Positions 5,601-60,710 of a stretch of 64,000 nucleotides of DNA are shown here, one piece after another. Under the pieces are notes generated by a model. That model searched no databases. It was not told the DNA's origin and saw only the letters and a program-made list of their open reading frames with translations. Each line of letters opens with the position of its first letter. Within the stretch, counting starts at the first letter, position 1. Source of the stretch: Thereva unica (taxonomy: Eukaryota > Arthropoda > Insecta > Diptera > Therevidae). The translations under genes were made by a program, and so were the position numbers. The stretch is taken from contig CATLJY010000215.1 in NCBI GenBank assembly GCA_949987705.1, positions 1-64,000 of the forward strand, written 5' to 3'.

Positions 5601-8399
5601 TTCTGATTTACCTGCAACGTCATTGGATAGATGCAAATGTAAAATGTAAAACAAAAAATAAGACAAAAAAAAATGACTAACTTCAAGTTCCTGTAGCAAA
5701 GCCTGTTATTTCTTTTAATTTAATTCGCTGACCTGTAAACCATAATCTAGATTACATTAACCCTCATAAATAAATGTGGCATGTAGAAAACGATGACTAA
5801 ATACAGCAGAAATGAAGAAAAAAAATTCCAACATAATCCGCCTTTGGTCACATGTTGAGCAATACTTTCTCTCACGTAACTGTCATAATCCATGACTTTG
5901 TAGAAAGAACTTAAGAGAATGAAGAAAGAAAGACACGAGGTACGAAAAAACCGATTTTTTTTTCACAACAGGTAAAAGAACGATCTTCCATATAAAGGTG
6001 AGTGTGAGGGAATTCGATGCAAAACAAAATGCCCATTGACCTCAGTCGCTTTAAAACCCACGTCACCTGTGTTATTTTTGTTTTGTTGGTGAAATATTCA
6101 CAGACGATACAATTCCGGTAGGAATCGCCCTCCTATTATATATTATATATTCCCTCACCTGTCGCAAAAAAAAGAATTGTGCTAATGACATGGAAAATTC
6201 GCTTCTGATGCACAATATACCGGTCCCCAATAACCAACCACCAGCACACAGCACTTAGCATTTTACAACTTGAGATACAGACAACTACCGCACCACCAAC
6301 TACGAGTCCAGTGGTATACCATCACTGCTGGGTAAACTCCGCTAAAACGATCTCACGTTGGTGTCCAGGTATTCTCGTTACCTTTGCGTAAATACCTGGC
6401 GAAATGTGTGTCAGGCCTGTCTTCTGGGGAATTTCTAGAGAATACAGTTAGATTTTACCTTTGTCTTATGGATATTTCATTTTTTTCGCGCAGAATAACC
6501 AGAATAGGACTCTTCTGGCAGGTGAGCGAAGAAAGTAGTAAGAATAGTAATAAATTGAGCAGAACCGAATGAAATAAGTGAGTTTTGTTTATCTTGGATT
6601 GAATTTCCCGCAATTTTACATACCTGACCAAAAACGAAAAATTTCCATTAATTTGCATCATCAGTCAGCTGTCGACCAGGAACGCTACCTTCACTTTTGT
6701 GTTTGCCAGTTCTTCTCTTCAGCGTTTTTTTTTTGTTACTCCCATCTATTCTGCCTCCAGGTAATTTGAGGTAATCTTCTACCTGTCTACAGACGGAGAC
6801 CAAGAATTATCATTGATTTCATTTCATTTCTTTTTCGTGTGTGGTGTACCGTTAGTCCACTTTAGATACTCTTCAGCGAAATTGTAGCGCGTTGGCACGA
6901 AATTCGTTCTTTTTCGTTCTGGCTGATTTGCGTTCTTGTTTCGTTGTGTGATGGCATAAAGGTGGCTTAATCGGGAGTTATTTGGCATGCACGAAACGTT
7001 TTTGGTTGAAGAGAAACTTTCATTACGCAGAATCATTCAGGTTTGCGTAGTTATGATGGGGGATTTTGTTTTCAACGCATAGATAATGTTTTATCGCTTC
7101 TTTGTTTTGCAAATTTAATGCAACTGTTTGGATTGGCAACCCAGCATGGTCACTCAGTCTCTGGAGAACACCATAGTAATAGGATGCCCAAAGGAAGAAG
7201 TTATTTATTTCAATCGTTCTGGACCATGAAAGCCATGTATGTGGAGTTTGAATCTGCATTAGACTCACTCGGCTTGCACATTCCAAAGAGTATCCAACCT
7301 ACGGTTGTCTGCTGTGCTGCGGAAGAGCCGTATATTCTATGCCTTAAACGTTGCACACTATAGTTGTGTATATTCCCGCCTCAAAGGACAAGGTCGACAC
7401 TAGCCGGGCGAGCATATGTAGGATCAGCTAGAGACAGGGCTGGACTAAAACTTTTGTAACTTTTGAGGTGCACCGTCCGCTAGGTGAAGACCCGACCTAA
7501 GTGGAATAAGGTGTCTTCCCTGTTATTAAATGGTTAAGCTGGTGGGATATCTTATTAGGGTATTATGGACTTTATGCTTCCGACATCTATTGGTGAAATA
7601 CCTTAGTGTCATACAACTCAACGTTTTAGGGGATTCCCCGAGCTGATTTCCCTGTCAATTTGCGGGTGCACGATTGTTTTTCGTTTGTTCGTTAGTTGTC
7701 TTTCCCTAAAATTTTGTTTCTAAAAGGGACGAGTCATGGAATTAAGAAAGAAAGAAGCTCGAATCGAGTTTAGGTCTACTCTAGCTCATTTATAGTTTGA
7801 TGGTCCCTTGCAGAAGTCTCCAGTTCCGAATGATGAGCGTTATCTGTCACAGAGTACATACATATACCCATCTACCGAACGGTCTGCTCCCTCAAAATTC
7901 TGATACCAAGAGCCGTTTTGGAAAAAGGTTGTCTGTCTTCCTTTTTTTATTTTTTTTAAAGAGTGACAGGTCAACCCACATGGTAAACACTACAGCCAAG
8001 TTAGGCCTATTATGAACCTACCCTACTAGCGGAACCGACTATCAGCCTTCCGGACAAAGACAAGGAGGTCTTTAATTGACGAAGACCGGACCTGAGAAAG
8101 GCTTATAAACTCTCTGATAAACGTTATTCTAAGCCAGATCACGAAGAATATGTTTGCAAGTCAAATCCGGCCAAATCTCCCTAGTTTCAGGGGGTGATGA
8201 TACGTTTATAGGCTCTTCTGTCTGTCTCTTGACAGCACCACGCAAGCACGGAGGCCTCATTACATTCCCCACCGACGTGCCCGCGATATTTGCTCCAGTC
8301 TGGTCAATTCATATACACTCTCGTTTCCCTCGATGTTCATTTGACCCGGTACCCGTTGAAGAGTGATCCTGTTCGGGGTCCTTCTGGCAGTTATCGACC
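5601..8399. other. Unassigned AT-rich interval
   Basis: No gene is supported. Open frames here are short, start mostly at non-ATG codons and overlap on opposite strands. The segment about 7040-7560 has more balanced composition and may be an old repeat, but I recognise no protein motif in it. Confidence 0.35.
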
Positions 8400-8795
8400 A
8401 GCTTAGAAATTATACGGGCCGACCCTTACTCCTGGCCTCGGGTAAGACTGCATTGTCATTTGTCAGGCGTTTAAATATTGGCAGAAGCCTAGAAAATGCT
8501 GGCGAAGCTGAGCAGGTGGAAGAATTTGGCAAATTAAGCCATGGGGAAAACATTCCAGCCCCCCTACACCCGACTCCAACAACAAAACGGCGCGCCAAGC
8601 TCTAATTGGGCCTTCGGTCGCACAGGACACAGCCCTTCACTTACCTTGGATATGAATCCGTCTATGTAACAGACAACATGATCCTTGTTGGGTTTGAAAT
8701 GCTCCCATTCCTCTATTGTTAGGGTCTGGATATTGAGGTCATTGCCGAAATTTAATTTTGCCTCCATGTGGTCGGTGAGTCCCGCTACCATTCCC
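8400..8795 (-). pseudogene. Decayed LINE RNase H-like fragment
   Basis: Read on the minus strand in shifting frames, 8700-8650 gives VVCYIDGFISK and 8560-8510 gives GAGMFSPWLNL. These resemble the TDGS and GAG-FS motifs of I-clade LINE RNase H domains. Several frameshifts separate the motifs and the catalytic context is not intact. The assignment rests on two short motifs only. Confidence 0.35.
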
Positions 8796-9442: not shown

Positions 9443-12400
9443 GTACTTGTAACATAAATTTTCTTAATAATGAAGCAATATTTATTAATCTTCTTTTTTA
9501 ATAAACAGGACGAGAGTCTTTATCTTGCAGAAGAAATCAGCGACAATAGTATAGATCAAAATACAATATCACATTTTCCACATGAAATTACAACAGTACC
9601 AACGAGTGCACTCTTTAAACTAACAACCCCAATCCACACTAGTAGTAGTAGCAGTAGTAGTAGCAGTAGTATCACTAGTATAAGCTCATCATCATCATCC
9701 AGTACTCAAGAAATTCCAACTAAAAGTCCATACATTCCACTACAAACAGTAATTCATCCTGGAAAACAAGAGTCAACAACAACAACAACGACGACGACGA
9801 CAACAACCACTACACCAACAACCATTAAAACTTCACCAACAAAATTAACTTCAACCGAACCGATTACAACTACAATAAGTTCAACACATAGACCAACAAC
9901 TTTAGCATTTACCGCGACAACAACAAAACCTCCCGTTCTTACTACAGAGATTACCCCTAAAGAACCATCAACGATTAAAGTAACCACTCAACCCACAAGA
10001 ATAACAACGTTTCAATTAGTTGAAACAGAAGCACCGCCAACAACAACGACATACCGACCACGACCTACAAAAACGGTACAAACAACAACCCCCAAGCCTA
10101 CTCCACAACGAACGACGACACAACGTCGAACAAAACCAACCAGAAGGCCGACAACTACCAGGCCAGGAACTGTAACTACAGTTAGTGTTAATACTACAAA
10201 ACGTCCTTCTGCAAAACCAACTACACAACCACCACGGACTTCTGCACAATCAACAAAACGGACGACAAGTAAGAAGCCGTCTGTGTCCACGTCAAGACGT
10301 CCAACAACGAATTCTACACAAAAACCATCGACCAAGAATACTTCGAAGCCTTCGAGGCGTCCGACTGTTACAACAACCACCGGATCTACTGTTGTAAGGA
10401 ACACAACACAAACCAAACCCTACAGACCCGCAAGCACTAGTCCTTTAATAAGTACCACTGTGCATGCAAATCCTCCAGTAACAACAACACCAGTGGTGAC
10501 CTATGGAACTAAGGCTCCACGACCGAAACCAAAACCAACCGCAGAAATTGTACGAGTCCCACCAACAACCATAAGCGATGAAATCGAAGAAAAGGAGTCT
10601 TTCACCACCGAGCTACTGACTGAAAAAGAACCATCATCAACAACATCGAAATTCTCAACAACATCATCTACAATAACTACTACTCCTTCACCAACAACAA
10701 GCTCAACAACGACAAACAAAATTACTACTACTAAAGTACCAGTAACGTCTTCTACAACCACAAAATCTACAACACCAACAACACCAATTTCACAACCAAC
10801 TGTTACAACGACTTCAAAACCACCTTCATCAGAAGCTCTACTTACCACCGCCGCTCCTGAACCGACTACTTTAAGACCATCGTTCGTGACTTGGACAAAT
10901 TTTGACGAAGTCAAGAATAATTCAACATCACAGACCAACAACTCAATAGAAGAAGACTGGCAACCCCGACCACCGCCTGACTGGGTTCCAGTGCCAACAA
11001 TCAGACCTGATATGGAGTCAAGTAAAAATCAAACCACATCTACAACTTCATCCCCTTCAAGTTCATCAGTAATTGGTGGTACGTTTCAATGTTATTTAAG
11101 CCTCAATTTCTCTAATCCTGTTCTAATTCTAGATTACTCATCAACACTAGACATGACGTCAGCTTCTTCAATAATGACAGATAGTAGCAGTTCGAGTGAG
11201 GCCTCGAAAGAAGAGCTATCTTCGACACAATCGGTGAAACCGTCAAGTTCCAGCTCTTCAGTATATCCCTGGCCTTCAACAACCCCACCCTACAATTTTA
11301 CCACGGATGGAATTGTTTTTGGGACGACAGACTCACCTGCAGCAAATATGACAGAGCCATCAATCTCAGGAAGTAATGCAACGTTGACGCCGTCATTTAT
11401 GACAACAACACCTTTCCCATCTCTAGAAGGAATCGATTACAAGCATAGTATGTGAAATTTTTAACTTTTTTAATGTGATTCCCTAGTGCTTGGATGGAAG
11501 CTGTACTGTCGACTATTCTATCCAGAATGTTGAGCTGGCAACGCCAACCAAACTTTCATCCGATACTACCGCAACAGAAGGGTATCTGCGAGGAAACAGG
11601 AGCTCGCTATTCGTTTATGATGCTTATATTCAATGATAGTAGAGAGCACAGAGTATCTCCATATAGCACGAAGCGGGTTTTAGACCAAATTGATCTAATG
11701 GCGACCTTTTTGTGCGTCTGACAGAGCACCTCAACCAAAGCATTCGTGGCCATTGGTAAAGCTGGTTTGATGGTTCTCGATATCTTCAAAACTTTGACAC
11801 ACTGCTTTGTTGAATTAACTCTAAGTTATTGGTATCTAATGAAAAGCTATCTAGATAGTTATTTAGTCATGTAACTAGTCCCACCTGTAGGGCCCCAACA
11901 ATTGTAGGGCTGTACTCGGAGAATGCACAGAAAAAATCCACTTGGGAGGGACCAAACCAGATGTGAAACTCCAGGCTTCGGGATGTTTCATTAAACACCA
12001 ATCGTGAAATATACTCTTCACCCAGAAGCTGTTGGGCACGACAATTCCCGGTGCTGGACCGTCAGTAACTGTGACAAAGCTTCGTTTGGCCATGCGGTCC
12101 GAATTTTGATTGCTTTCGAAGCGCTGATGAAGTTAACATGTTTGAGAAACTCGCATGGCAAAAAGCTTTCCCCAAACTAGATATGTTAACCCCATATAAT
12201 TCCACTTGTCCTCAATATCGGATGAGAACCGGCCTTTATGGTCATCAAGATAATCGTTTTCTTCGTTCTTTAAAATTTCTGAAAGCTTCAGTAATGCTTC
12301 CTTGAGAGCATATTTGGCAGCGCTCAAAATAAGCTCCCCTGAGCAGCGCTCCCAATTTTCCGGCTGGGTACCTACACTGTTTCGGCCTCATTTGTATTTA

Positions 12401-26651: not shown

Positions 26652-27657
26652 CCTAATAGTCCAGGAAGAATAGAAAAAAAGTTGAAATAAATCTACCCTG
26701 CGATTTCTTGACGCTATAATTAAGAGAAAAATCGTAGGAATTCAATGAATGTGTTTTGGATAAAATTGGTCCAGGGCAACAGGTGGTAAAAAGCTAATAA
26801 AAGGAGCGAAAACACGTTTTTTCACGTTTTGGGTACGAAAAATATGTTGTTTTGGAAAACAAAAAATACTACATAATAGTGCTTAAAAAGACGAAAATTA
26901 TGAGTTTTGGACCATTGAAATCGGTCAACAGGTTTTTGCAGAAAAATTCAAAAACCGTTAAAAATGGTCATTTTTTAACATTTAACTATAGGGAATTTAA
27001 TTATCGTAGAATCTTGCGGCAGGGCTTAAATTGTGGTTTCTGATGGTGCCTACCTACAATAAAAATTTCATGACAAAATAATGGTAACTTTTCGAGTAAA
27101 TCTCAAAAATGTAAAAACACCTGTTTTACGAAAAAAGGTTGAACAAGGCCCACAGTCGTCCTAGAAGTTTTTTGATTGACCATTTGGCTCGCAAAGGGTT
27201 GCTCTACAACCCCATTTTCATGAAATGTATGTAAGGTTTGATTTAACACCTTCAAAACGCGTTTGAAAACAGGCTCTTTTCTCGATTTTCAAAAAAAAAC
27301 ACCCGCCGGCGAAGGGGAATTGTAATATGGTGTGGGAAAGCTTTCTGCCGGCCGAGCTTCTTAGATCTAAATATTTTCGCGCGTTTTTACATATGACAGG
27401 AAAACTTTTGATATCTCGAAAACTACTGAAGGGAAATTGATGATTTTTTAAGTAGTAAAAATATAAACCCAGAAATACAAAGCCATATTATTGATGCATT
27501 GAAAACGAAGGTTTAAATTTGCTAATTATTTGTATGGGCATGTCATAATTTCCTATTTGTTTTTTAAATACAATGTGATGTGCCTTCCGCGTTTAAGGGA
27601 TATGAGTATAATAAAACAGATTTGTTGCAATTTTAATTTTTAATGTTAATGTTAGTA
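26652..27657. repeat. Left terminal inverted repeat of the 5.26-kb element
   Basis: This is the inverted copy of 30895-31910. It contains a 63-codon open frame (26852-27043, plus) whose identical twin is at 31700-31509 (minus). That is expected from the repeat and gives no evidence of a gene. The inner boundary is at GTTAGTA (27651-27657). Confidence 0.85.
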
Positions 27658-29902
27658 CTGTTTATTACCATTTGTTATAATTATAAAATTATAATTATTG
27701 TGATTTAATATCACCAGTAAATGTGTTGCATACGAAACTTGAACGATTTCTTGTGTGATTTTGTGTGTAATTATACTTTTTGGTTATACGTACAGCGAAG
27801 GTAAATCTCGCTCAGCTGAAAAACGCTGAAACATTTTTGAAGCAAGACGTTTGTTTGTACATATTTCTAATTTCGAAGGTTTGTATTTTGCTTTCAACAT
27901 TGAAATATCGCAACGAAATTTGTAACTTTATACATAATTATATTTATAAAATTTTGAATTTCACTTTTATTAGGGTTTCAATAATAATTGTCGTAATGGA
28001 TAGTGTACCAAATAAGTGTATACTGTGCGACAAGGATATTTTACAAGCCGAGTCTTCAACGGTCGTGCAAAAAAAAAACCATAAACAAGCTTGTGCAGTG
28101 CAGCTTACAGAGAAGAGATGGAAAGCATCGCAGAATGCAAATTCTTTCTTCGACAACGGTTCACTGCAGCTGCCAACGTATGTACACCGCATTGGCAAGT
28201 ATTAAAAAAAGTTCCGATATTAAAAAAAAGGAATAGTCGCAGAAAAGCGACAATCAAGCGAAGAAAGGGGAAAAAAAGTAAGCCGAAATTTCGATTATTC
28301 TGCGTTATGTTTGTTCTGCGCTCTTGATGCGTCTGATCATTATATAAAACTATCTGCAAAATATCCGGAAAGATATTCAAGAGTTTGTAAAGTAACAACT
28401 GCAGAATTTAAAACTAACGTAATTGAGTATTTAAAAAATAATAAGGACGACGGTTCTGCTGATGTTTTAGAACGATTGAAAGTCGACACAGACTTGACAC
28501 AATTGCATGCAAGATATCATTGGACGTGCTACAACACATTTCGTGCAAGTACTACCCAACAGAGAGGCCGTCCTGACTTAGAACATATTTCGGAGGCCGT
28601 CCGTTTCGTGATTAATACTATTTATAATGACTCCGAAGATTGCCAATTTTCTTTGAAAAATATTTTAGGGCAATACAGAGGAGAAGAAGCTATTGATATA
28701 TATTACATAAAAAGGAAAATAAGTGAAATACTTGGCAATGACATTATAATCTATAAAGTTAGCAAAGATTATATAATGTGTTTCCGCGATGTTTCCGAAA
28801 CAATTTTAAGTCAAGAATGGTACGAGCAACGTTCCAATAACGAACAGGAAGAAAATGCTCGAATAGTACAGGCCGCGGCAAATATTGTTTTGAGAGATAT
28901 CCGCTCACGTGTGTACGATACTGAGTATTATGAATCTCCCGATACTTTTTTGAAAGACGTTGAATCATATATACCAGAAACGTTAAAGATTTTTTTAAAT
29001 ACTCTAATAAACAACAACAAAAAACGCGCTGACTCTTCTACATGGACCAATCGAATGTTCATGTTTGCGCACTGCTTGATAGCCTCAGTAAGGCCTCGTT
29101 CATTCTTGTCACCGCTGATGCTTGGCTTATCAAGCATGCTTCATAAAAAATTCGGCTCTAAAAATCTGATATCTACGTTGTCGCACATTGGCGTCTGCGC
29201 GCCGTATGAGAAAACGGTTCGATTCGAGGCCTCTATATAACATGAGCCGCAAACCTACGAGTTTGATTCGTCCTACATGCAATTTGTTTTCGACAATGCG
29301 GATCATAACTCTAGCACGTTGGGCGGCCTGAAAACATTTCATGCGATGGGCGGCATACAGTGCGTTACTCCTGCGTCATCAGTGTCGTCTGCTAATAAAA
29401 TAAAAAGATTAAAAATATTGCCTAACGTAGCGGAAATTGGTAAGTTTGGCTTTATCCCTCTGCAAACTTTTCAAAAAAAAAAAATTGTGGTGGCTTAAAG
29501 AATGTAATTGCATCTGACCTGGCTTCAAATAGCTTCTTTTCGGAAAATGTGCAAGTAAGTTCCAAGGATTTCCTGTGGTTTCATGCCACCCAAGCATGCC
29601 CAGATGAAACACCGGGATGGAACGGATTTCATGAAAAATTTACGAAATATCGCGACTGCGACCGAACAAAGATTATTCCCCTACCATTTATTAATTCCCC
29701 GCCAAGCAACTACGACACCATTTTGACTGTGTTATTGGAAGCTGACAAAAAATGTAAAGGCAATAATCAGATGCACACATTTGTTACCTTCGACCAGCCT
29801 TTGTACCAAAAAGCTTGCGAAATTATAGCTTGCTATGCTGGCTCTGCTGACGAGAATAAATTAAGCTCTGTTATTTTGTTATATTCTCAATCCTTTTCTT
29901 AA
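27658..29902 (+). pseudogene. Broken transposase-like gene of a long-TIR element
   Basis: The coding trace begins at ATG 27996 with MDSVPNKCILCDKDI, a CxxC zinc-binding start, and shifts frame near 28130 and 28300. It then runs open from 28311 to 29240, including LHARYHWTCYNTFRAS. After a stop at 29240 it continues with FDNADHNSSTLGGLKTFHAM near 29290 and, after another shift, VTFDQPLYQKACEI near 29795. DNxDHN and FDQPLY look like active-site blocks of an RNase H-fold transposase, and I remember the same order of blocks in large uncharacterised, transposon-like proteins of insects and cnidarians. The expected C-terminus is missing and is replaced by tandem repeats. It cannot encode an active enzyme. 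The function is inferred and the family name is unknown to me. Confidence 0.65.
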
Positions 29903-30170
29903 CCAATTTCTGAGTATACTTTAATTAAACCATTCCTCTATTATCTCGCTTTAGCTTATATTCTTAATATTTCATTTAAACAATTTTTCAATATCCTTTC
30001 GTTAAATTATATCCTCAATACTTTAAGTAAACCGTTATTCAATTAACCTTCTTCGGCTTATATCCACAATACTTTACTTAAGCAATTTCTCAATATTCTA
30101 TCGTTTAATCATAATTATATTCACAATACGTCGTTAAAATACATAAATCCACAATATTTCTCAATATATG
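29879..30170. repeat. Diverged AT-rich tandem array
   Basis: A TTATATYCHCAATA-like core recurs at 29879, 29957, 30008, 30058 and 30115. The last four are spaced 50-57 bp, with CTTTA and AAACAATT pieces between. The first copy overlaps the end of the transposase-like frame. Confidence 0.65.
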
Positions 30171-30894
30171 AAAACGCGAAAAGTACGGAATACCCGGCGC
30201 CCGGTTGATATTAAAACCGAACTCAAAATCGAACTTCCGTAGTTCGTGATTAAAAATCAACTCTTTTTGAAAAAATCGTAAACCACAATATATATATAAT
30301 TATTTTAGTCAAATGCGAGCGTTTTTGTTTCTTTTGTGTAAAATCTTTATCCTTCATTTGGGCCCTCCACCAAACTTCGATACAGAGCCCGTCTAAGGCA
30401 CACTACGCCACTGATTTTTAACAATATACAAAATGTTTATTAACCCAAATCACATGTTTGTTATGATTGATATTATTCAGGTATGATCCAATCGTATAAG
30501 CTCCCATTCAAAGGACGAACACTCTAGCATGAAGGAATGATTCTTATAAGGGCATATGCTTTCCGCATCAGCTTGGACGATCACGATCTGCCTGGCCGAT
30601 AAAGAAGTCGCGAGCATGTACTCTTTAAATGCCAGAGGTTTCGAGAGACTCTTCTAAAAATGATTATGACCCCAGGCCGAAGTAATGCATGCCTTTACGG
30701 CTAGTACCGGCCTAGACTCAAATGTCATGCGACAGCCGACAGGGTTGGTGAGTTTAGTCAGTAGGAATCTGACACTACCGTCTGGGTGCGGATCCCCGTC
30801 TCCTGTCTAGGCATGGCAGCTTTAGACAGGCGGTCTCATAGGGCCGATGTAAGATTCTCACAACTCCCTCGAAAAAACAAAAACAAAAAAACAC

Positions 30895-31910
30895 TACTAA
30901 CATTAACATTAAAAATTAAAATTGCAACAAATCTGTTTTATTATACTCATATCCCTTAAACGCGGAAGGCACATCACATTGTATTTAAAAAACAAATAGG
31001 AAATTATGACATGCCCATACAAATAATTAGCAAATTTAAACCTTCGTTTTCAATGCATCAATAATATGGCTTTGTATTTCTGGGTTTATATTTTTACTAC
31101 TTAAAAAATCATCAATTTCCCTTCAGTAGTTTTCGAGATATCAAAAGTTTTCCTGTCATATGTAAAAACGCGCGAAAATATTTAGATCTAAGAAGCTCGG
31201 CCGGCAGAAAGCTTTCCCACACCATATTACAATTCCCCTTCGCCGGCGGGTGTTTTTTTTTGAAAATCGAGAAAAGAGCCTGTTTTCAAACGCGTTTTGA
31301 AGGTGTTAAATCAAACCTTACATACATTTCATGAAAATGGGGTTGTAGAGCAACCCTTTGCGAGCCAAATGGTCAATCAAAAAACTTCTAGGACGACTGT
31401 GGGCCTTGTTCAACCTTTTTTCGTAAAACAGGTGTTTTTACATTTTTGAGATTTACTCGAAAAGTTACCATTATTTTGTCATGAAATTTTTATTGTAGGT
31501 AGGCACCATCAGAAACCACAATTTAAGCCCTGCCGCAAGATTCTACGATAATTAAATTCCCTATAGTTAAATGTTAAAAAATGACCATTTTTAACGGTTT
31601 TTGAATTTTTCTGCAAAAACCTGTTGACCGATTTCAATGGTCCAAAACTCATAATTTTCGTCTTTTTAAGCACTATTATGTAGTATTTTTTGTTTTCCAA
31701 AACAACATATTTTTCGTACCCAACACGTGAAAAAACGTGTTTTCGCTCCTTTTATTAGCTTTTTACCACCTGTTGCCCTGGACCAATTTTATCCAAAACA
31801 CATTCATTGAATTCCTACGATTTTTCTCTTAATTATAGCGTCAAGAAATCGCAGGGTAGATTTATTTCAACTTTTAACTACTTTTTTGCTATCTTTCCTG
31901 GACTATAAGG
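30895..31910. repeat. Right terminal inverted repeat of the 5.26-kb element
   Basis: This is the reverse complement of 26652-27657 with about 10 extra bases close to the outer end. Both arms share the same CCGGCGGG-containing segment near the middle. The outer end is followed by LINE sequence. Confidence 0.85.
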
Positions 31911-31924
31911 GTGTAACAACGTGG

Positions 31925-32060
31925 GAGAAACAACTTCGCTGGAAGGATGGCGTAGACCAGGACGGTCAGAGATTAGGGAAGCCAAACTGGATGACATCGG
32001 TTCAGAATTGGGACCGGTGTAGAGAACGGTGGCGGTAGGATGGAATCTGTATAGAAGAAG
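31925..32060 (+). mobile_element. LINE 3' end (family L2 of this window), copy 1
   Basis: The CGCTGGAAGGATGGCGTAGA block and a following AAACTGGATGACATCGG segment recur at 33339-33480 (plus) and, inverted, at 37985-38090. In other LINEs such sequence encodes the arginine-rich end of the polymerase. No frame is intact here. Confidence 0.6.
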
Positions 32061-33130: not shown

Positions 33131-33338
33131 AGCTGGACTTTAGAGCATATGGTTGCAATTAACGATGTTCTTCAGAGGGGTCATTATATACATGCCAGTA
33201 TTATGGGAGAGATTGCTGCATTGCGTGCCTTTGATCTTAATGTTTTAGATCACTTCCCTAAAACATAAGACAGGCTATCCTGGGTTTTTCTGTAAGGTGA
33301 ACTAGCATGGGGTGCGACAGCGAGGTAGATCCAAACTT

Positions 33339-33490
33339 TCGCTGGAAGGATGGCGTATACCAGGACGCTCAGAGCTTAGGGATGCCAAACTGAATGACAT
33401 CGGCTCAGAATCGGGACAGGTGGAGAGAACAGTTGCGAGAGGCCAAGACCGGATCCCCGTTGTACAGCCGTTAAAGAAGCAGAAGAACTA
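33339..33490 (+). mobile_element. LINE 3' end (family L2 of this window), copy 2
   Basis: This is the second plus-strand copy of the GGATGGCGTA...GACATCGGCTCAGAATCGGGACAGG block seen at 31925-32060. It extends a little further downstream to GCCGTTAAAGAAGCAGAAGA. Confidence 0.6.
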
Positions 33491-37984: not shown

Positions 37985-38090
37985 ATCTGAATACACTCCC
38001 GATTCTGAGCCGATGTCATTCAGTTTTGCATCCCTAAGTTCTGAGCGTACTCGTCTACCCCATCCTTTTAGCGGAGGTTAGGTCTTCCAG
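37985..38090 (-). mobile_element. LINE 3' end (family L2 of this window), inverted copy
   Basis: The complement of this segment matches the GACATCGGCTCAGAATCGGG and CTCAGA.CTTAGGGATGC blocks at 33339-33480. This gives three dispersed copies in the window, two plus and one minus. Confidence 0.55.
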
Positions 38091-38239: not shown

Positions 38240-39180
38240 ACCAAGTGAAGATCCGCGCGAGGTGTATAAATGTCTCAAAGAGCTCGACGTCAATAAATCC
38301 ACTGGCCCCGACAAAATCCCCCCTATGGTACTCAAAAAATGTGCCTCACCTTTGGCTAAACCCCTGCGCAAACTTTTTGCCCTGTCTTACTTCTCCGAAG
38401 TGTATCCCGACTCTTGGAAACTAGCTCAGGTTCAGCCCATTCCCAAAAAAGGTGAAGCCAGCGACCCTTTAAACTACCCCCAATAGCAATTACTCCTGTT
38501 CTCTCCAAAATCATGGAGACAATAATCAATAGAAGGCTGATGAAATATCTGGAATCCAACCAAATTTTACACGACAGGCGGAAAAGATCTACTGGCGACC
38601 TTCTTGTGTGTCTGACTGAGGCTCTCAACCAAAACATCCATCGTTTCGGTGAATCTGGTTTGGTTGCTCTAGATATATCCAAGGCTTTCGACAGAGTATG
38701 GCATCCCGCTCTGCTGTCTAAACTCCAAGCTATTGCTATCGACTCAGTTCTTAGGAATTGGATTGAGAGCTTTCTTTCCAGCCGTTCAATCATGGTGGTG
38801 TTGGATGGCGTCGAATCCAACCCTCATTCCATCTCGGCCGGCGCTCCCCAAGGCCCGATTCTCTCATCTGCCCTCTTTCTTATATTCATTAATGATCTGC
38901 TCTCAATCCCCTCCAACCCACTTCACAGTTTCGCCGATGACGGTACTCTGCGTTACTCCGACACCTTCGATAATATAGGACAAGCACGTGCCAGACCTTG
39001 TCCCGTAGACCGTAATATCTTAGAGTTCAAACGCAAGGTTCATCGACATCTACTCACGCACCCTCCAGACCCCTAACCTATCCTTTCTCCTCTATCCTTC
39101 AAATCAAGCTTACTACTAGACACTGACCATGACTTGAACGACATGACAGACATGTAGTACAAAGGGTGATTCCTAAGCTT
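38240..39180 (+). mobile_element. Jockey/CR1-like LINE reverse transcriptase, truncated and deleted
   Basis: This is the best-preserved RT in the window. 38262-38486 gives KSTGPDKIPPMVLKKCA and a PIPKKG motif. After a frameshift near 38487, the frame 38513-39076 gives GLVALDISKAFDRVWHPALL, AGAPQGPILSSALFLIFIND and FADDGTL, the catalytic palm motif. After DNIGQ the frame jumps straight to a C-terminal LEFKRKVHRHLLTHPPDP, so the thumb region is deleted. The 5' end (ORF1, endonuclease) is absent. The 3' tail 39150-39200 is shared with other copies. It is not functional. Confidence 0.85.
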
Positions 39181-60026: not shown

Positions 60027-60710
60027 AACTTCCCAGTATAGGAAGTGATTGTAATCGGTCCGAAAATCGAAATCAAAAATTTCAACGTATTTTCATCTTT
60101 CAAGGTCCCAGGAGCATTTTAAGCAAAAAATTGGGAGGAAGCATGTGTGTGTGTGTGCGCGCGTACGGACGTGGTCATTTTTTCCTGCATGATATCGCGC
60201 GAACCAAAACTGATATCGACTTCGTTGAGGTGTCGTTCGAAGCGTATCAACCGAAATATGATCTGAAAAGATTTTCATGAAATTCGGTCCAGCCGTTTTT
60301 TTGTTTAAGCGACGTAAGTGATTTTTGTACCTGCACGATATCGCCGAACCACGAAAGATACTTGAGGTGCCGTTCGAAGCGTATTAGCGACAATATAATC
60401 TGAAAAGATTTTTATAATATTCGGTCCAGCGGTTTTTTGGTTTAAATGACTTAAGTGATTTTTGTACCTGCACGATACCGCGCGAACTAAAAACTATCGA
60501 CTTCATTGAGGTGCCGAAAAACATTAACACATCAATTTTATATACATTTTCGTCATCCTAATCTTGTAAGTGCGCACATTTAGTTTGACATTTTAGCGAA
60601 AATATTGATAAGCAATTGTGACAAATTTTCGGTATTATACATATATTCTATATTCATTTATTATTAAAATATCCAATCATAATATTCAACATCCATCATA
60701 CTGGGAAGTT
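60027..60710. mobile_element. 684-bp TIR element with about 140-bp internal tandem repeats
   Basis: AACTTCCCAGTAT at 60027-60039 is inverted at 60698-60710. Inside, a unit beginning CCTGCAYGATAYCGC starts at 60184, 60330 and 60467 (spacings 146 and 137 bp), with shared GTTCGAAGCGTAT and ATTCGGTCCAGC blocks. The left end ACTTCC...GGAAGT is also a small palindrome. No transposase is present. TTAA/TTGA flanks are suggestive but not decisive. Confidence 0.7.

Follow-up and report, generated by a model that had tools for sequence, protein, structure and literature searches.

Positions 26652 to 31910 of a 64-kb stretch of Thereva unica DNA (contig CATLJY010000215.1, positions 1 to 64,000; hereafter the window) raise the question of what kind of element carries long inverted arms around a broken gene. 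The original prediction for this locus had proposed a transposon with long terminal inverted repeats (TIRs), i.e., two near-identical arms of about 1 kb, enclosing a transposase-like gene remnant that could not be placed. We conclude, with a probability of about 0.83, that a non-autonomous, AcademX-type family of cut-and-paste transposons has amplified recently and that the feature is one of its copies. AcademX is a lineage of the Academ superfamily that was reportedly described by Kapitonov and Jurka in 2010 and by Kojima in 2020. This placement is made because a DDE transposase, an EXO1/FEN1-type nuclease, a Cys-rich end and target duplications of 3 to 4 bp occur in combination. The window copy is composed as follows.

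26654-26656, unstranded: left target-site duplication, TAA
26657-31905, plus strand: complete non-autonomous transposon copy, 5249 bp, with ends TAGTCCAGG...CCTGGACTA as in 17 other elements and in L044/L046
26657-27666, plus strand: left TIR arm, with an A-type outer end
27996-29875, plus strand: truncated AcademX-like transposase gene, up to position 611 of a 1466-position protein profile (first 18 profile positions placed by eye)
28017-28319, plus strand: N-terminal Cys/His blocks CILC ... VHCSCQRMY ... CLFC
28569-28796, plus strand: counterpart, mapped by eye, of the winged-helix-like domain modeled for the relatives (P0009 residues ~172-246)
29292-29309, plus strand: DNADHN block, strand 1 of the RNase-H-like domain
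29786-29806, plus strand: TFDQPLY block, with the second catalytic-type Asp
29876-30885, unstranded: non-coding right interior of the family, abutting the truncated gene; its segments recur in shorter, gene-less derivatives
29916-30113, unstranded: 51-bp tandem array, 3.9 diverged copies
30886-31905, minus strand: right TIR arm, with a B-type outer end that has a 10-base gap relative to the A end
31906-31908, unstranded: right target-site duplication, TAA

The span first assigned to the element exceeds it, the outermost five bases on each side being flank that includes the TAA found at both exact ends. When 26652-27666 was aligned with the reverse complement of 30886-31910, 1008 of 1025 columns were identical. 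The remainder comprised a 10-base gap, which lay within the outer ~40 columns together with four of the 7 mismatches; of the other three mismatches, two were at the inner edge and one in between. The predicted pair of arms was thus confirmed, and within the 64-kb window there was no further long arm match (longest, 28 bp).

We searched for the arms in the host assembly (910 Mb, 930 contigs), scoring 40 of 1555 first-look candidates, so that the count of places is a lower bound in which the best matches are favored. At least 40 places, including the window's own two, were 97 to 100% identical to the left arm, and many of them formed inverted pairs ~5.25 kb apart. The window was then compared with 24 other elements or single arms (25 stretches in all), using the end motif TAGTCCAGG...CCTGGACTA as our script's own criterion for an end. 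Both arms with this motif were found in 18 stretches (the window and 17 others), and L044 together with the end piece L046 brought the number of elements to 19; L055 had two arm matches and no end motif, and L047, L048, L049, L050, and L054 held one arm within the stretch taken. Target duplications flanked 16 of the 19 elements (3 bp long in 15 cases, 4 bp in one) and were not found for L032, L038, and L045. By comparison, shuffling the right flanks among the elements 20,000 times gave a mean of 2.1 duplications and a maximum of 9. Eleven copies (L031-L039, L041, and L045), lying on contigs C1, C2, C3, and C5, matched the window element along its length, ten of them with 99.0 to 99.5% identity over 5.2 kb and L039 in two blocks (99.1 and 98.2%).

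Within the window copy, four open pieces in three frames matched positions 19-611 of the protein profile, in order (E values of 2.2e-07, 1.7e-92, 1.6e-28, and 3.9e-40), the profile having been built from 76 relatives; no match to positions 612-1466 in the window scored better than E 2.1. Pfam scans of the four pieces returned no usable domain. The blocks singled out in the original prediction (LHARYHWTC, DNADHN...TFHAMG, and TFDQPLY) were all present. The copy retains both D blocks, and of the two invariant Asp residues in DNADHN, one is likely the first catalytic residue; the E, the nuclease half and the Cys-rich end are missing. The N-terminal Cys/His blocks look zinc-binding, and their residues suggest metal binding.

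The reading frame changes three times, at or near A-runs of 7 to 12 bases (28069-28078, 28204-28229, and 29473-29484), and a stop lies at 29238-29240. Because the frame changes adjoin such runs, those seen in single copies may be assembly errors. Among the 12 copies (the window and the 11 others), the frame at two A-runs differed and the stop was seen in two, while the break near 28204-28229 was present in all. The coding match stopped at profile position 611 in all 12 copies, and also in L047 and L049. Since it ends at the identical position across copies, the loss of the gene's second half was inherited by the amplified family and not suffered by the window copy. What had been taken for a single decayed gene remnant is, therefore, an internal-deletion form common to the family.

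Deletion products of the P element can act as repressors, and such a role was considered for the truncated protein. It was rejected, as there was no clear selection: with the open part of L038 as reference, the remaining 11 copies had 15 silent, 23 altering, and 3 stop changes. Under neutrality the respective fractions would be 0.24, 0.71, and 0.05, so that silent changes were in weak excess. Shorter or rearranged derivatives (L042, L043, L052, and L056) had no match to the protein profile. In L051 and L053 the left side was folded back on itself, giving a TIR of 1.24 kb, and in L044 and L052 the TIR was extended inward on the right side, to ~1.4 kb. The 10-kb L044 was also examined as a candidate autonomous element and discarded, as it had no profile match and its extra length was made up of a long interspersed nuclear element (LINE), seen as LINE-like open frames, and of an additional pair of 558-bp inverted repeats (L044:1755-5195 and 5696-8783).

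A full-length relative, P0041 (1483 amino acids), had at least 38 matches in the host genome (31 of 3807 candidates scored), several of which were open frames of ~1,480 to 1,590 amino acids with no internal stop. Flanks were inspected for four full-length genes, with the element start taken as TAG by analogy.

C4:52588216: full-length element; TIRs ~0.46 kb, ends TAGTCCAGT, TAT duplication
C2:161656540: full-length element; ends and arms like those of C4:52588216, no duplication seen
C1:91877625: full-length element; TIRs 1110 bp at 99.6%, ends TAGGCTAGTGCAA, TAT duplication
C1:199694734: full-length element; TIRs ~0.34 kb at 98%, TAA duplication

These four represent three families, each with a short matching end, ~10 to 30 unlike bases and then long near-identical arms. 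In the right flank of C1:91877625 (L062), an extra terminal motif, TAGGCTAGT, was seen just outside the right end.

The full-length relatives combine the transposase, an EXO1/FEN1-type nuclease and a Cys-rich end in one protein; we take the latter two to be what is called XPG and Cys8 in AcademX. Modeling, which the original prediction had suggested as a check, predicted a DDE domain of the RNase H type, with an RNase-H-like fold by model comparison and a P-type transposase as the best fold match; a Foldseek search with the modeled transposase returned no hit at E ≤ 0.001. The D, D, and E positions were acidic in 73 of the 76 alignment rows, and the seven Cys columns of the C-terminal finger were intact in 69. 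A Pfam scan of 15 relatives placed DUF6589 above cut-off in one (P0124) and gave otherwise no usable domain; the same family was a precomputed label on 5 of the 120 relatives listed, and a literature search for it found nothing related. No P-element Pfam family was matched at E ≤ 1 by nine relatives or at E ≤ 0.1 by six more, and sequence-profile searches listed no P-element chain at E ≤ 10. Pattern matches to the protein in viral contigs (39) and in prokaryotic genome contigs (25) yielded no confirmed relative, and a 23-base arm pattern had no match in viral contigs. One relative, P0109, comes by its annotation from the rust fungus Austropuccinia psidii and has 42% identity to P0032 over 89%; its presence there may reflect either transfer between kingdoms or contamination.

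The AcademX assignment was made by architecture and published description, not by comparison with named Academ sequences. In the accessible part of the description, AcademX target duplications are 3 or 4 bp and those of AcademH 9 or 10 bp, the lengths being related to the nuclease and helicase they encode (PMC10045372). The elements studied here have 3- to 4-bp duplications and TIRs, and the relatives supply the DDE domain, the nuclease and the Cys-rich finger. According to the available portion of PMC4455052, Repbase groups two non-autonomous elements when their duplications are of equal length and their first 11 bases differ by no more than one mismatch. Over these 11 bases, both window ends had one mismatch to the left end of C4:52588216 and two to its right end. 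The match to the left end falls within the rule as excerpted, which was made for two non-autonomous elements, whereas the Academ status of C4:52588216 rests on architecture. The gene left unplaced in the original prediction can thus be placed through the architecture and duplications of its relatives; the call of a DNA transposon with long TIRs and a transposase remnant stood.

Three competing explanations were weighed. Since the comparison with Academ was by description and the Pfam scans were nearly blank, the proteins could form a separate, unnamed superfamily that resembles Academ only in that a DDE transposase is paired with an XPG-type nuclease; the duplication length, the nuclease, the large protein and the occurrence in animals nevertheless fit AcademX, as far as the available description goes, and we consider such a superfamily unlikely. 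A long-TIR, Galileo-like member of the P superfamily would account for the fold nearest to P, and Galileo has TIRs of up to ~1.25 kb along with chimeric copies. It is very unlikely, however, as P elements are not known to have the EXO1/FEN1-type nuclease and the Cys-rich end of the relatives, neither a P-element Pfam family nor a P-element chain was matched at the thresholds above, and duplications are 3 to 4 bp here instead of the 7 bp of Galileo. Finally, the arms might be unrelated to the gene remnant between them, having arisen as a local inverted duplication by chance or as two insertions of another repeat. Their 98% identity is indeed far above what would be expected around a gene that had been decaying for a long time, but in the 11 further copies these arms again enclose this interior, and the same pair delimits 17 further elements and L044/L046, target duplications coincide with both outer ends, and full-length relatives have the same design. 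The probability of this last explanation is negligible; the original prediction had named its second form, two separate insertions, as a possible refutation.

Across ~930 comparable inner positions in 18 elements, the number of differences between the two arms of one element ranged from 0 to 4 among the 12 ~5.2-kb-class copies and from 4 to 24 among the six others. Summed over the 18 elements, this amounted to 79 differences, compared to a mean of 199.5 and a minimum of 107 in 10,000 random left/right pairings; for the 12 ~5.2-kb copies, the sum was 21, compared to a mean of 41.5 and a minimum of 27. At 8 of the 18 informative columns (68, 390-392, 517, 596, 606, and 658), groups of elements differed while the arms of one element always agreed. 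Given these columns and the lower-than-shuffled differences, we conclude that the arms of one element have, on the whole, been corrected against each other. The alternative, that arms are identical only through very recent insertion, has in its favor the youth of the copies and the other ten informative columns, at which at least one element was mixed, the rarer base at columns 319 and 320 always being in one arm only. Independent arms would, however, leave each change in one arm only, whereas the eight columns separate element groups while both arms within an element always agree, and the observed differences lay below every shuffle. We find recent insertion by itself unlikely.

The outer ~35 bp escape this homogenization, with one A-type and one B-type end in 17 of the 19 elements. 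The two B/B elements, L038 (C1) and L045 (C2), both lack a duplication, and the right flank of L038 (L057) and the left flank of L045 (L058) have 2 kb in common, at 99.0% identity. By analogy with Galileo, as described in the accessible text of PMC3573991, these two likely arose by exchange or duplication through the arms; a repeat in the flank is another possible source of the common 2 kb.

We envisage that the element ends are bound in trans by full-length AcademX proteins whose genes lie elsewhere in this genome, that the P-element-like DDE RNase-H domain of these proteins would excise the ends and join them to staggered target DNA, and that the tethered EXO1/FEN1-type nuclease might trim flaps or ends. 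Conversion or gap repair from one arm would then keep the other alike, sparing the outer ~35 bp so that A and B persist. We further suggest, quite tentatively, that AcademX enzymes are P-like transposases with a built-in 5'-flap nuclease, that the long arms are a by-product of the reaction and that A and B are both needed. After excision, or at a nick made by the nuclease, one arm might fold back on the other or template its repair; kilobase TIRs could in this way be made, lengthened and kept identical, and the ~35-bp terminal binding sites would stay unlike since the enzyme requires one of each.

Academ transposons have been named yet little studied, and we know of no biochemistry on them. 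The host genome offers open full-length genes, a young family and exact ends with duplications, and its full-length enzymes could mobilize the window family. Because the models join a transposase of P-element fold to an EXO1/FEN1-type nuclease, it becomes possible to test what a flap nuclease does in DNA transposition, and concerted arms with spared, unlike termini provide a concrete system for the origin of long TIRs. In a literature search, none of the 12 best-ranked of 20 papers covered all of the relevant topics, which is weak evidence that a link between Academ and P is not in print.

Several other features were noted. In L055, an open frame at 5975-6412 matched the nuclease part (profile 1080-1162, E 2.9e-17), overlapping the arm's outer end and extending beyond it; this copy may be inserted into or beside the gene of an Academ-type relative. 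In the window, a short repeat occurs three times (31935-32039, 33338-33442, and, on the minus strand, 37997-38076) and reads like the C-terminal end of a non-long-terminal-repeat retrotransposon (RWKDGVDQD...; by reading only), one copy beginning 30 bp beyond the element's right end. An empty site was sought at the second copy of the right-flank repeat (33310-33437) and dismissed, as no left-flank match lay beside it. The window also contains a reverse-transcriptase-like open frame at 38456-39076, probably a LINE fragment (by reading only), a mucin-like open frame of 665 amino acids, extremely rich in Thr, Ser, and Pro, at 9458-11455, and a tandem array at 60225-60487 (137-bp unit, 1.9 copies, 87% matches).

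Compared to known systems, the P element is not known to have an XPG nuclease and makes 8-bp duplications, and Galileo, a member of the P superfamily in Drosophila, is not known to have a nuclease and belongs to a different protein family. The proteins described here differ from the Drosophila P element transposase (PDB 6p5a and 6pe2) in that no sequence match to it was found, and from FEN1, EXO1, and XPG nucleases in that their predicted nuclease is fused behind a transposase domain. With Galileo the elements have in common kilobase TIRs, TIR growth, chimeric copies and a P-type transposase as best fold match; in the available text on Galileo, TIRs grow by absorbing interior sequence and chimeric copies lack matching duplications, while its target duplications are 7 bp, in contrast to the 3 to 4 bp found here (PMC3573991). 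Relative to AcademX, the nuclease half is missing from the window family itself, and the homogenized TIRs of 0.34 to 1.1 kb seen here may be a further difference. The likeness to AcademX, as far as the accessible description extends, lies in a DDE-type transposase with a nuclease, duplications of 3 to 4 bp, a large protein and occurrence in animals (PMC10045372).
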